Shown one piece after another: positions 964 to 54,271 of a stretch of DNA of 64,000 nt. Within the stretch, counting starts at the first letter, position 1, and every line of letters starts with the position of its first letter. A program made the position numbers and the translations under genes. Source of the stretch: SAR116 cluster bacterium AG-337-N21 (lineage in GTDB: Bacteria; Pseudomonadota; Alphaproteobacteria; Puniceispirillales; Marisalimonadaceae); the NCBI GenBank assembly GCA_003282145.1, contig QBZZ01000005.1:41455-105454 (forward strand). Direction: 5' to 3'. The notes beneath the pieces are model-generated. The model searched no databases, was not told the origin of the DNA, and saw only the letters and a list, made by a program, of their open reading frames with translations.

Positions 964-1995
964 TCATTTATAGTTTCTAACAATGTCAATAACTTTTCTG
1001 ACATTTTTAATTTTACAATCTGGAGTTAATCCGTGACCAACGCTAAAAATGAATTTATTATCTTTCATAATATTCAAAATAGAAAGAACAATATTTTCTA
1101 AATGACTACTATTAAATGGAATTAGTGAAGCCGGATCAAGATTTCCCTGGATGGCGATTGAAGAATTCAGATTTTTGATTGCCCAATTTAAATTAACAGT
1201 CCAGTCCAGGGCTATACAATTAACATTGCTTTCATATGAATAATCTATTAGAGAAGAACCCGCTTTAAAAGGCAGGCCAATTATTGGTTTTGTAACATTT
1301 TTTGATTTTAACATACTAATAATATTTGCTGTTGGGTCAATGGCACATTTTCTGAAAAATTCACTAGGTATCATATGAGACCAAGAATCAAATAACATTA
1401 ATACATCTGCTCCTGCATTTGCTTGCATTTCAAGTTTCTCAGCAACATAAATAGATAATGTATCTATTAATTCCATGAACCATTTATTTGAATCCCAGAG
1501 AGCTTTTCTTGTATTAATAAAATCTTTACTACTTTGACCTTCAATCATATAACAAGCTAGTGTCCACGGAGCGCCAGCAAAACCAATTAAACTTGTAGAT
1601 TGTGGTAGTTCTTTTCTTAAAATTGATATTGATGTCTTTAAAGGCTCAAGTTTTTGTGAAATATTGATGTTTTTCAAGACTTTTGTTTCATTAGGAACCA
1701 TTGGTTTTAAAGTTGGCCCAAATCCTCCAATAAAGTTTAGTTCTCTATTCATTGCCCACGGTATCATCAGTATATCCGAAAAAACAATGGCAGCGTTTAA
1801 ATCATAATATTTTAAAGGCAGCTTTGTGCTTTCAATAATTAATTTTGTATTCAAGCAAAAATTTATAAAGTTATCTGATTTTTTTCTTATTTCAAAATAT
1901 TTTGGAATATGTCTGCCTGCTTGTCTCAAAAACCAAATTGGTATTCCAAGATATTCATTTCTAAAAAACTTACTCAAATCATCATTCATGATCAT
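964..1995 (-). CDS. hemE: Uroporphyrinogen III decarboxylase
   Basis: 343 residues, normal for HemE, which removes four acetate carboxyls from uroporphyrinogen III to give coproporphyrinogen III in the cytoplasm. The N-terminal motif IWFLRQAGRHIPKY carries the substrate-binding arginines. FSDILMIP supplies the catalytic aspartate, YMIEGQSSKDF the conserved tyrosine, and FSVGHGLTPD the C-terminal histidine. Two ATGs compete (1995 and 1989) and differ by two residues. It is transcribed away from coaE across a 280-bp gap that I read as the replication origin, and it probably shares a transcript with hemJ and rho. Confidence 0.95.
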   Translation of the reverse strand: MIMNDDLSKFFRNEYLGIPIWFLRQAGRHIPKYFEIRKKSDNFINFCLNTKLIIESTKLPLKYYDLNAAIVFSDILMIPWAMNRELNFIGGFGPTLKPMVPNETKVLKNINISQKLEPLKTSISILRKELPQSTSLIGFAGAPWTLACYMIEGQSSKDFINTRKALWDSNKWFMELIDTLSIYVAEKLEMQANAGADVLMLFDSWSHMIPSEFFRKCAIDPTANIISMLKSKNVTKPIIGLPFKAGSSLIDYSYESNVNCIALDWTVNLNWAIKNLNSSIAIQGNLDPASLIPFNSSHLENIVLSILNIMKDNKFIFSVGHGLTPDCKIKNVRKVIDIVRNYK

Positions 1996-2024
1996 TTTCT
2001 TTATTTTAAATAATAATTTAAATT

Positions 2025-2039
2025 TAGTAGTAGTAGTAG
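2025..2039 (+). repeat. (TAG)5 trinucleotide array, candidate DnaA-trio element
   Basis: Five perfect tandem TAG units. Read on the minus strand, the order is DnaA-like box TTATCAACA, a 12-nt spacer, (CTA)5, then a nearly pure A+T stretch toward hemE. That matches the described DnaA-trio layout (consensus 3'-[G/A]A[T/A]-5' on the bound strand, starting a short distance from a DnaA box and leading into the unwinding region). A plain microsatellite is the alternative. Confidence 0.55.
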
Positions 2040-2051
2040 TGTTTAATACTT

Positions 2052-2060
2052 TGTTGATAA
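2052..2060 (-). promoter_or_regulatory. DnaA-box-like site next to the TAG array
   Basis: The minus strand reads TTATCAACA, one mismatch from the TTATNCACA consensus. It points toward the TAG array 12 nt away. A partly matching inverted copy, TTGTCAACAA, follows at 2077-2086. Confidence 0.45.
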
Positions 2061-2128
2061 TTTTTTGTTCAAGTAATTGTCAACAAGTTTTTAATATATA
2101 ACTATTTTATATATAATGATATTTAGCT

Positions 2129-2137
2129 TTATTCACA
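2129..2137 (+). promoter_or_regulatory. DnaA box, consensus match
   Basis: TTATTCACA fits TTATNCACA at every position. It lies inside the hemE-coaE gap, just after the A+T-rich block at 2088-2125. A nine-base motif can arise by chance in A+T-rich DNA, so its weight comes from its position. Confidence 0.5.
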
Positions 2138-2275
2138 ATTTATAATTTTGTTTATTTGTTTTATTCAGATGTTGTTAAAGTAAGAATAAATGCATAGTCT
2201 ACTATTATAAAATAATTTACTATTAGATTAGGCTTTTTTTGTTAACAGCTTATTTACAGGTGTAATAGATCATTA

Positions 2276-2890
2276 ATGATAATCATAGGTATTACAGGTT
2301 CTATAGGGATGGGTAAATCGACTATTGCCAACATGTTAAAGCAATTTAAGATACCTGTTTTTGATTCAGACAAAGAGGTTAGAGACATATTAGAAAATAA
2401 TAATGCAGTAAAAAAACAGATATTTAATTTATGGCCTGATGTAATTTTAACTGAAACAAACAAAAAAGAAATAGATAAAAATTTATTAAGTAGAAAAATA
2501 TTTGGTAACATAAAACATAGAAAGACTTTGGAGAGTATTATTCACCCAAAAGTTAAAGAAAGAAGGAATATTTTTATTAAGAATGTAGAGAAATCACCTA
2601 TAGTCGCACTTGATGTTCCTTTGTTATATGAGACAGGTACTGATAGAGTTTGTGATGATGTATTTTTAGTCTACACAAATGAAGAAACTCAGAAAAAGAG
2701 AGTTTTAGCAAGATCTAGCATGACTCAAAAAAAACTAGATCTTATTAAAAAGGCTCAATGGAATGATCAGAAGAAAAGAGATAAAGGTCCATACTTAGTG
2801 ACTACCTCTTATGGAAAATTTGTCAGTTTTGCTATAATAACTAGTTATTTAATAGCTATAATCTTTAAAAAGAAGATTTTAAAGTTATGA
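2276..2890 (+). CDS. coaE: Dephospho-CoA kinase
   Basis: 204 residues, the usual CoaE size. It phosphorylates the 3'-hydroxyl of dephospho-CoA, the last step of coenzyme A synthesis. The P-loop GSIGMGKST lies at residues 8-16. VFDSDKEVRDIL gives the conserved substrate-binding aspartate region, VALDVPLLYE the lid and binding motif, and RVLARSSMTQKKL the C-terminal helix. It is the first gene on the plus-strand side of the candidate origin and overlaps dnaQ by 4 bp (ATGA), so the two are probably co-translated. The neighbours often seen before coaE in relatives (a DUF299 protein, maf, aroE) are not here. Confidence 0.93.
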   Translation: MIIIGITGSIGMGKSTIANMLKQFKIPVFDSDKEVRDILENNNAVKKQIFNLWPDVILTETNKKEIDKNLLSRKIFGNIKHRKTLESIIHPKVKERRNIFIKNVEKSPIVALDVPLLYETGTDRVCDDVFLVYTNEETQKKRVLARSSMTQKKLDLIKKAQWNDQKKRDKGPYLVTTSYGKFVSFAIITSYLIAIIFKKKILKL

Positions 2891-8598: not shown

Positions 8599-8913
8599 AT
8601 GAATGATCAATTTATTATAGAAATGTTTGATAGCTTAAAGAAAAGAAAAAATATAAGTAAAAATAAGTCTTATACGGCACACTTAATAAAAAATCCTGAA
8701 TTATTAGGAAAAAAAATAGGTGAGGAAGCCGCTGAACTAATAATAGATTTTATAAAAAAAAACAAAGATGGACTTATTAAGGAATCAGCTGACCTTATTT
8801 ATCACTTACTTGTTATTTGGGTTTCAGCTGGAATAGACCCTAGAGAAGTGTGGGAGGAATTATCTAATAGACAGTTAAAATCTGGGTTTGAAGAAAAAAA
8901 CAGCAGGAGTTAA
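8599..8913 (+). CDS. hisE: Phosphoribosyl-ATP pyrophosphatase
   Basis: 104 residues of the all-helical MazG-like HisE family, which splits pyrophosphate from phosphoribosyl-ATP (histidine step 2). The metal-binding helices show as KKIGEEAAELIIDFI and KESADLIYHLLVIW. The track starts at a GTG (8587) inside hisF. The ATG at 8599 directly after the hisF stop gives the family-typical length. It closes the visible histidine cluster. hisG, hisD, hisC, hisI and hisZ must lie elsewhere. Confidence 0.92.
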   Translation: MNDQFIIEMFDSLKKRKNISKNKSYTAHLIKNPELLGKKIGEEAAELIIDFIKKNKDGLIKESADLIYHLLVIWVSAGIDPREVWEELSNRQLKSGFEEKNSRS

Positions 8914-42302: not shown

Positions 42303-43841
42303 ATGAACAAATACTATAAATCTAAATTTTTATGTAATATTTTAATTTTTTGTTCAGCTTCAATTGCAACTTTTTCAATCCCCCCTTTCTCCTTTTTCTT
42401 TCTTATCTTTGTCTTGGGTTTTGGGATTTATCTAATTACTTTAAGCTCTTCATTAAAGCAAACTTTTATTGCAGGGTGGTTTTTGGGGTTTGGTTGGTTT
42501 GCATTCGGTCTATATTGGATTGGTTCAGCCTTTATGGTAGCCGATACTTATCACAAAGTGCTGATGCCTTTAGCTGTTGTTATTTTACCGAGTGTATTAG
42601 CAATTTTTTGGGGAATTGCATGTGTTTTTGCTAAATTACTAACAAAAAAAAATCAATCTTCTTTATTTTTAATAATAGTTTTTTTAACCTTATTTGAATA
42701 TTTAAGAGCAAAGTTGTTTACAGGTTTTCCATGGTTAATGCCTTCAATAATCTTGTCATCAAATGATTATTTAATTCAAATATTTGCATTAGTAGGAAGC
42801 TTTACGGCTAATTTATTTGTCTTTAGTTTTTCAATTTTACCTTTTGTTTTAATTTTTAATTTTAGACGTAAATACATTATTTTTAGTTTGTTATCGATCC
42901 CTATTACAATATTACTTTTTTCAAGCTTTGTTCGTCTCTACAATAAAGATGTTGAGATTTTAGATGATAACTTAATTACACTTGTGCAACCCAACATAGA
43001 ACAAAAAGATAAATGGAATCTTGAAAAACGAAACTTTAATTTAAATAAACTAACACAACTGTCTCTTCAAAATGTTAATGAAAACATAGGCGTTAATAGA
43101 ATAATTATTTGGCCTGAAACAAGTTTTGAAGGTACAATACCAAACGAAATGGAATTGTTATCTGTTGTTAGCAAACGAATATTAACAGATCAAAAAGCAA
43201 TTTTAGTAGTTGGGTTATTAAGAGTTGAGAAAAACAAATTGTTCAACTCGCTTGTCTTTTTAAACTCAAAAGGAAATATAATACATCAATATGATAAAAT
43301 ACACTTAGTTCCTTTTGGTGAGTACATACCACTTAGAAATAAATTTACCACAATTGCAAATTTTTTAAGTTTGAAAGACTTCTCCAGTGGAAATATAAAA
43401 CCAAATTTTACTCTAAAAGGACTTGGAAACATATTAAATCTTATATGCTATGAAATCTTATTTACTGAAGAGGTTATTTCCAGATTATCTAAAAACACAA
43501 ATTTATTAATTAATATTACCAATGACGCTTGGTTTGGAAAAACAATAGGGCCTTACCAACATTTAGCACTAGCTAAAATTAAGGCTGTTGAATTAGGAAT
43601 TCCATTAGCTAGAGTTGCAAATACAGGTATATCAGCCTTAATTTCACCTTATGGAGAAGAAATTACTAAAATACCTCTTTACGAGAGTGGTGTTAGAACC
43701 GCTAAATTATCATTGCCTTTAAAAAACACTATTTACAGAAAGTACGGTGAGATTATTTTTATTGTTTCAATTTCATTTTTAATATTTATAAATAAGTTGT
43801 ATAATTATAAATTTAGAAGAGATTTAAACTATGAGAAATAA
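42303..43841 (+). CDS. lnt: Apolipoprotein N-acyltransferase
   Basis: 512 residues. About seven N-terminal membrane helices are followed by a periplasmic nitrilase-fold domain. The catalytic triad residues are visible as the glutamate in [12 protein letters not shown], the lysine in [16 protein letters not shown] and the cysteine in LICYEILF. Lnt adds the third acyl chain to lipoproteins, which fits the several lipobox proteins in this window. Its end overlaps the metK start by 11 bp. Confidence 0.94.
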
Positions 43842-51800: not shown

Positions 51801-51812
51801 AAGGGGAATACG

Positions 51813-52082
51813 GTGTCGATAGAAAAGAACAAAACAATCGAATTAATTAAAGACTATGGAAATAGCAAAACAGACTCTGGTTCAGCTGATGTTCAAGTTG
51901 CTATTTTGACTGAAAGAATTAAAAATCTAACCGAACATCTCAAGTTTCATAAAAAGGATTTTGGATCACGTCGTGGATTATTAAGTATGGTTGGCCAAAG
52001 AAGAAATTTATTAAAATATATCAAAAATAAAAACGAAGATCGTTATTTAGACCTTATTAAAAAATTAGGTTTAAGAAGATAA
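51813..52082 (+). CDS. rpsO: 30S ribosomal protein S15
   Basis: 89 residues, the exact family length. Motifs are [46 protein letters not shown], spread along a four-helix protein that binds 16S rRNA and nucleates the platform. The start is GTG 51813 behind AGAAGGGGA. It lies 12 bp after truB and 76 bp before pnp. The rpsO-pnp pair is conserved across Proteobacteria. Confidence 0.97.
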
Positions 52083-52158
52083 TGTTATAAAATACACTGT
52101 TGCATTTTTAAGAATGTATAAATTGAAAGAGTTTAAGAAGTAGGTAGAGGTTATTGTT

Positions 52159-54271
52159 ATGTTTGAAGTTTATAGAAAAGAAATCAAATGGGGTGGTAAA
52201 TTATTAACGTTTGAAACTGGAAAGATTGCTCGCCAAGCAGATGGTGCAGTTATGGTTACTTATGGTGGCACTACTGTCTTATGTACTGCAGTTGGTGCTT
52301 TAACTGCGAAACCTGGAATAGATTTTTTCCCTCTTACCGTTAATTATCAAGAAAAAACATTTGCTGCTGGTAGAATACCGGGTGGTTTTTTTTAAAAGAG
52401 AAGGAAGACCTTCAGAAAAAGAGACATTAGTCTCAAGATTAATAGACAGACCGATTAGACCGTTATTTCATAAAAATTATAAAAATGAGACGCAAGTTAT
52501 TGCGACAGTTCTTGCTCACGATATGGAAAATGATCCAGATGTAGTCGCTATCTTGGGTGCTTCTGCAGCTCTAACAATCTCAGGATTACCATTTATGGGA
52601 CCGATTGGTGCTTGTCGCGTTGGTTGGGATGGAAATAATTATATTTTGAACCCAACGATAGCACAAATGAAAGATACAACTTTAGACTTGGTTGTTGCCG
52701 GTACAAGTGATGGTGTCTTAATGGTTGAATCAGAAGCATCTGAGTTATCTGAAGAAATAATGTTAGGAGCAGTAGATTTTGGTCATGGAGAAATAGAACA
52801 TGTAATAAAAGCTATAATAGACTTAGCTGAGGTTGCTGCCAAAGAACCAAGGCCTTTACCAGACGAGCCGAAAGAAAAAGATGAATATTTAAAAAAGATC
52901 ACGCCATTCAGAAAAAAGTTTGAGAAGGCCTACAAGGAAATTGATAAATCAAGTAGATCTACTATCTTATCTCATATTAGAAATGAAATAATTTTAGAAT
53001 TTGGTGAGTTGGCTAATTCTACACTTTTATCATCTCTAACAAAAGATATAGAGGCTGATATTGTTAGAAGTAGTATCTTAAAAACCAAAAGAAGAATTGA
53101 TGGTAGAGATACCAAAACAGTTCGATCAATTGTAGCTGAGGTTGGAACTTTACCTAGAGCACATGGCTCAGCACTATTCACTAGAGGGGAAACACAAGCT
53201 TTAGTCGTAGCTACCTTAGGAACTGGTCAAGATGAACAAATAATTGATGCTTTGGAGGGTGAATATAGGTCAAAGTTTATGTTACACTATAATTTTCCTC
53301 CATATTCGGTTGGTGAAGCTGGTAGGGTAGGATCTCCGGGTAGAAGAGAAGTAGGGCACGGAAAGTTAGCATGGCGCGCTGTTAACCCTTTATTACCGTC
53401 AGGTGACGATTTTCCTTATACGGTAAGAATTGTTTCTGAAGTGACTGAATCAAATGGTTCATCCTCAATGGCTACCGTATGCGGTACCTCACTTGCTTTA
53501 ATGGATGCTGGTGTTCCAATAAAAAAACCTGTCGCAGGAATTGCTATGGGGTTGATTAAAGAAAAGAAAGAATTTTCAGTTTTATCAGATATTTTAGGTG
53601 ATGAAGATCATTTAGGTGATATGGATTTTAAAGTTGCTGGAACTGAAGATGGTATTACAAGTCTTCAAATGGATATTAAAATCACATCTATCACTAAAGA
53701 AATAATGGAAATTGCCTTACAGCAAGCCAAAGAAGGTAGAATTCACATATTAAACGAAATGGCTAAAGCTATAGGATCTCCCAGAGAAGTTTTAGCTGAA
53801 TCTGCTCCAAAAATTACCACTATGAAAGTGAAATTAGAAAAAATTCGTGATATTATTGGACCTGGTGGTAAAATAATAAGAGAAATATGCGAAACTACAG
53901 GTGCTAAAGTAGATATTGAGGATGATGGCACAATTAAGATTGCCGCTTCAGACGCAGAATCTTCCCAAGCTGCGCAAAGTAGAATCAACGATATAGTTGC
54001 TGAAGCAGAATTAGGAGTTATATATACTGGAAAAGTTGTTAAAACAGTTGACTTTGGAGCTTTTGTAAATTTTCTTGGAACAAGAGATGGATTAGTTCAC
54101 ATCTCTGAATTGCAAAATGCGCGAACTGAGAAAACCACTGATATTTGTAAAGAGGGCGATGATGTTAAAGTAAAGGTCATAGGTTTTGATGATAGGGGTA
54201 AAGTCAAATTATCTATGAAACGAGTTGACCAAGATACTGGTGAAGATATAGAAAATAAAAAAGAAGATTAG
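52159..54271 (+). CDS. pnp: Polynucleotide phosphorylase, reading frame broken by one extra T
   Basis: The track splits this gene into 52159-52395 (78 aa) and 52361-54271. The first ends IPGGFF then TAA; the second carries [27 protein letters not shown]. Relatives read through [11 protein letters not shown] without a break. The junction is a run of eight T (52386-52393), and removing one T restores a frame of 703 residues, normal for PNPase. Two RNase PH-like domains, a KH domain ([26 protein letters not shown]) and an S1 domain ([19 protein letters not shown]) are intact. The enzyme degrades RNA with phosphate. Options are sequencing error, slippage rescue or a true mutation. Confidence 0.9.

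Follow-up and report, generated by a model that had tools for sequence, protein, structure and literature searches.

A hemE-linked chromosomal origin, very probably, in a SAR116 bacterium, with a candidate DnaA-trio-like unwinding element

The divergence of hemE and coaE in a SAR116 bacterium raises the question of whether the A+T-rich gap between these genes is where chromosome replication begins and, if so, how the initiator DnaA might open the duplex there. The window, by which we mean the whole stretch of 64,000 nucleotides analysed here, covers C5:41455-105454 of an assembly of 55 contigs that is 82% complete. Its CoaE is 92% identical to that of SAR116 cluster bacterium AG-390-L20, the nearest named genome found (order Puniceispirillales, Alphaproteobacteria). 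The original prediction placed a candidate oriC at 1996-2275, and this placement is supported by both conservation in relatives and strand composition, leading us to regard the gap as almost certainly the chromosomal origin. Its bounds are exact, running from the ATG of hemE to the ATG of coaE between divergent genes (Table 1). The description of this gap as the only sizeable non-coding one was also fair, since what looks like a 560-nt gap at 51801-52360 is coding sequence and holds rpsO and the start of pnp. The pnp gene (52159-54271) is itself split by a frameshift near 52385-52393, at a run of eight T, with one frame ending in ...AGRIPGGFF; this is probably a sequencing or assembly error. 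Scans of the window for tRNAs and Rfam families gave no matches, a scan of the gap for GANTC motifs found none, and the single-strand DNA fold of the gap was not informative (z -1.56).

Table 1. Features of the hemE/coaE locus (window coordinates)
Feature	Positions	Strand	Remarks
hemE, conserved left boundary gene	964..1995	-	Pfam URO-D, 3.3e-83
oriC (very probable): hemE/coaE intergenic region	1996..2275	.	280 nt, 18% G+C; C5:43450-43729; purine-disparity minimum inside on C5 and G011:C1
A+T-rich block between hemE and array, presumed first-melting site	1996..2024	.	Seen in the sequence, same place in relatives; role inferred
(TAG)5 DnaA-trio-like array, probable unwinding element	2025..2039	+	Unique in window, 0.01 expected; period-3 array in 25/26 congeners
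DnaA box 1	2052..2060	-	TTATCAACA on minus strand, reverse box TGTTGATAA; 12 nt from array; TTATCCACA or TTATTCACA in 16/26 congeners
DnaA box 2	2077..2085	+	TTGTCAACA here; TTATCCACA in 11/26
DnaA box 3, best conserved box position	2129..2137	+	TTATTCACA, full match
DnaA box 4	2161..2169	+	TTATTCAGA; conserved ATGT follows
DnaA box 5	2239..2247	+	TTGTTAACA here; TTATCAACA in 12/26
DnaA box 6	2250..2258	+	TTATTTACA; 11 nt from box 5 start to box 6 start
coaE, right boundary gene in genus	2276..2890	+	Pfam CoaE, 6.7e-36

The excess of DnaA boxes in this single sequence is marginal. Compared with 1000 dinucleotide shuffles, the gap holds one perfect TTWTNCACA (0.06 expected, P 0.057), four sites with at most one mismatch to it (1.4 expected, P 0.058) and three matches to TTWTNNACA (0.59 expected, P 0.019). 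The full-match box and the near matches in both orientations on which the original prediction was built are indeed present, the former at 2129-2137 and the latter on both strands, yet with a box count barely above that of shuffled sequence this evidence by itself would leave the question undecided. Searches with CoaE and HemE in 61 genomes, including the bacterium's own, yielded 26 same-genus loci in which both genes were readable, the window's among them. The divergent hemE/coaE gap is kept in every one of these, at a length of 259-289 nt, and all 26 share six aligned box positions, five of them forward and one reverse. Across the gaps, mean identity is 0.83-0.93 in the boxes and 0.60 outside the elements, and in the 26-gap alignment 72% of positions within elements are at least 80% identical, compared with 18% elsewhere. 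Conservation of the gap and boxes in sister genomes, on which the original prediction had let its claim depend, is therefore complete in this sample, and it removes the doubt left by the count in a single gap. On contig C1 of the congener G011 (727,698 bp), the highest TTWTNNACA counts along the sequence are those at the hemE/coaE gap. Box 4 and the ATGT behind it, at 2161-2174 (TTATTCAGATGTT), show 96-100% identity at four columns across the 26 genomes, which exceeds what a box alone would need.

Strand composition was examined on the contigs of this genus and on complete chromosomes from the order. The cumulative purine-excess minimum on C5 lies at 43708, inside the gap, and that on G011:C1 lies at 495436, likewise inside its gap (495420-495688). 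Plain GC skew was rejected as an origin marker on C5, as it was too noisy and had its minimum at 8,854, outside the gap; purine disparity was cleaner. The complete chromosomes G043 and G048, both of order Puniceispirillales, were sampled for GC skew in 20-kb pieces. In G043 the skew is -0.18 at 840-860 kb and +0.15 at 880-900 kb, on either side of a hemE gap at ~867 kb, and it reverses again between 2.0 and 2.2 Mb, at about half a chromosome's distance. In G048 it is mostly negative before the hemE gap and positive after it, with a local cumulative GC minimum at 1,491,844, within ~100 bp of the gap. The skew minimum that the original prediction proposed as a check could be sought in part: the bacterium's own contigs are not orderable, and both the purine minima on C5 and G011:C1 and the GC-skew sign changes in G043 and G048 fall at the hemE gap.

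The gene neighbourhood is that of a known class of origins. The order on the left, toward hemE, is parB-parA-rsmG-mnmG-mnmE-rho-hemJ-hemE, such that parAB, two perfect 16-bp parS sites (C5:37407 and C5:40663), mnmG and mnmE all lie within 8.5 kb of the gap; G011 has the same parS pair at 489383 and 492639, one with a single mismatch. The statement that all genes left of the gap are on the minus strand holds for the ~2 kb inside the window and onward to parB, ~8.3 kb from the gap, but not beyond, where genes turn to the plus strand. Origins beside hemE, which the original prediction had cited for Caulobacter and Rickettsia, are established in Caulobacter and have been predicted in the Rickettsiales, namely for Rickettsia, Wolbachia, Anaplasma and Ehrlichia (PMC1914354). 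Like the hemE-linked origins of Caulobacter crescentus and these Rickettsiales, the locus combines a divergent gap by hemE, DnaA boxes, an A+T-rich block, nearby parAB and a distant dnaA. It departs from other hemE-linked origins at its right boundary, where this genus has coaE. Elsewhere in the order, in other families, a different gene bounds the gap opposite hemE, and there is space for two genes before coaE; these are presumably maf and aroE, giving the order maf-aroE-coaE. A perfect CtrA site of the Caulobacter type (TTAA-N7-TTAA), which is not universal, was not found in the window's gap, and the 26 genus gaps together hold 12 such sites compared with ~6 expected. The strict IHF consensus, a degenerate motif, has no match in the gap.

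Two readings would deny the gap its role as origin. In many bacteria replication starts at dnaA, with dnaN and recF close by, and on that reading the hemE gap would be only a DnaA-regulated divergent promoter. As the original prediction had noted, dnaA is absent from this locus: the bacterium's own copy is clustered with dnaN and recF on contig C44 (L020, 4064 bp), and in four congeners (G011, G008, G034 and G012) dnaA lies 62.5-63 kb to the right of coaE, which would put this bacterium's dnaA a little beyond the end of C5. The clustering of dnaA, dnaN and recF is what such an origin would lead one to expect, but the 500-nt stretch upstream of dnaA in G011 contains one box-like site compared with five in the gap, and the purine minimum sits at the gap, 62 kb from dnaA. 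Moreover, dnaA of G043 is ~126 kb from the hemE gap, yet the skew flips at the gap. An origin at dnaA therefore appears very improbable. Contig C44, which judging by the congeners is expected just right of the window end, carries dnaA-dnaN followed by a truncated recF that overlaps a gyrB fragment in inverted orientation, and looks like a chimeric fold-back join. The other reading, that the gap is no more than an A+T-rich promoter region between divergent genes, with box matches arising by chance, gains something from its 18% G+C and from single-sequence P values of 0.02-0.06, but chance matches would not keep aligned positions in 26 genomes or coincide with the switch in composition, and we give this reading hardly any credence.

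If the gap is the origin, as we believe, the next question is how it may open. A perfect (TAG)5 at 2025-2039, absent from the original prediction, is followed by a 12-nt spacer and then by reverse box 1 (2052-2060). This order recalls the basal unwinding system (BUS) of Bacillus subtilis, a DnaA box with DnaA-trios, which has been predicted in 85% of surveyed origins with a box-to-trio spacer that peaks at 10-13 nt (PMC8287927). A BUS is defined by three or more NAN trinucleotides on the appropriate strand and a box with at most two mismatches within 16 nt, facing the trios; the window has (TAG)5 and, 12 nt away, TGTTGATAA. In nearly all congeners the spacer is 10-14 nt. Like the B. subtilis module (PMC8287927, PMC10721633), the locus pairs a trinucleotide array on one strand, made of canonical TAG units in the window, with a box facing it, and judging by the published trio strand and box order the two appear to share the same polarity. 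Thermotoga maritima has an eTrio of (TAG)3, and TAG repeats are bound by DnaA as single strand (PMC10316083).

The array recurs well beyond this bacterium. Runs of at least three (A/T)-(A/T/G)-G units occur on the array strand in 25 of 26 genus gaps, and runs of at least four in 24; the opposite strand has no run of four, and shuffles give 0.1. Outside the genus, runs of at least four units are present in 7/17 genomes from other families of the order (opposite strand 0, shuffled 0.4), and in a class-wide sample of mostly one genome per family in 31/68 (opposite strand 2, shuffled 2.1). In the class sample, at L204, L211, L212, L266 and similar loci, GTGGATGCCTGTGGA and a CGGGGAT-like sequence often come after the array, a pattern that suggests a longer origin core across the Alphaproteobacteria.

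Since genus arrays lie 22-45 nt upstream of the hemE start, they could conceivably belong to the hemE leader, read as CNA repeats on the hemE strand and acting, for example, as a translation enhancer instead of an unwinding element. Against this, the array offset in the class sample has a median of ~113 nt and the distance from hemE is very variable, yet the array adjoins box-like sequence. The array is also missing, by eye, where the DNA upstream of hemE is without origin features (L207, L258, L267, L272 and L281). Furthermore, an array and a box at most 16 nt apart are found in 20 genomes of the genus, 7 from other families of the order and 17 of the class sample on the array strand, compared with one genome in each on the opposite strand. 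These observations make a leader function unlikely, and the array is probably an unwinding element, the use of which by DnaA we infer.

The middle base of the repeat distinguishes these arrays from those of B. subtilis, as it may be A, T or G both in congeners and across the class. Array units in the class sample have T in 87 cases, A in 67 and G in 68, in a search that admitted A, T or G. The genus arrays are made up of TTG (39), TAG (36), ATG (27) and AAG (2) units, clustered by clade, and canonical NAN trios are not present in all congeners, with L030 and L033, for instance, carrying (TTG)4. Many independent switches of the middle base within the genus are not supported, as the majority state is clustered by clade, and A versus T needs a single change on the genus clades when mixed arrays are left out. 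Runs of TNG are ~25- to 91-fold over shuffles across genus, order and class, and runs of NAN, the published middle-adenine rule, at most ~2-fold; because the thresholds of the two patterns differ and NAN is loose in A+T-rich DNA, this contrast is one of signal strength and no proof that A is irrelevant. Single-strand motifs of Escherichia coli have been described as TTGT/TTATT (PMC10316083), and the TTG repeats of the genus arrays contain the former. The E. coli motifs are not described as a period-3 array in that paper, whereas here TAG and TTG share one place in sister species.

The DnaA residues that read the trio offer a possible explanation. In B. subtilis, DnaA captures the G of the trio through contacts from Arg202 and Glu228 and the middle A through Asn187, and substitution of T or G for that A reduces the activity of the origin (PMC10721633); the existence of trios without the middle adenine has been suspected (PMC8287927). 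Among 59 alphaproteobacterial DnaA sequences, 30 of them from order Puniceispirillales, the equivalent of Glu228 is kept in all and that of Arg202 is Lys in all, while the position of Asn187 holds Tyr in 49, His in 4, Phe in 3, Asn in 2 and Arg in 1. The bacterium's own DnaA has Tyr, Lys and Glu at the three positions. Lys for Arg202 is not confined to the class, as it also appears in sampled members of other groups within the phylum; at position 187, by contrast, these have Ala, Gln, Thr or Asn and never Tyr, so that Tyr alone looks class-specific. An array in which G is fixed and the middle is free would be consistent with a DnaA pocket that has retained contact with the guanine but lost contact with the adenine. 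We therefore tentatively propose, while leaning slightly against it, that alphaproteobacterial origins use a relaxed trio, (T/A)-N-G, with the G and the pitch of three bases retained and the middle base free because DnaA replaced the adenine-reading Asn187, mostly with Tyr. A strict link between array type and residue 187 was rejected, as Asn is present in L163 (G045) and L172 (G059), both from the order, and G045 has an array resembling that of its neighbours; any such link holds only at the level of the class.

The position of the locus, its composition switch, its conserved boxes and array and its gene neighbourhood, taken together with known DnaA biology for binding, unwinding and helicase loading, allow a model of initiation to be sketched. 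DnaA would bind the cluster of six boxes in the gap, with reverse box 1 acting as a loading platform beside (TAG)5. From box 1 a DnaA oligomer may grow along the array strand toward hemE, each protomer capturing one trinucleotide, and forward boxes 2-6 would assist assembly of the complex. The A+T-rich duplex on the hemE side would then open, allowing the helicase to load.

The locus is an ordinary example of a hemE-linked alphaproteobacterial origin, and the relaxed trio is a new hypothesis. A search of the text of open-licence papers turned up no study dedicated to trios in Alphaproteobacteria or to an origin in SAR116. The array bears on whether deviant trios lacking the middle adenine exist and on how DnaA would read them, and the occurrence of TAG, TTG and ATG arrays at one place in related species with a near-identical DnaA motif makes the proposal testable in vitro. 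If it is true, trio recognition evolved in step with the initiator, and TAG can drift to TTG or ATG between related species. For this SAR116 genus, known mostly from single-cell and metagenome assemblies, the origin would thereby be fixed, and its position would allow growth rates to be estimated from metagenome read depth and genomes to be correctly oriented.
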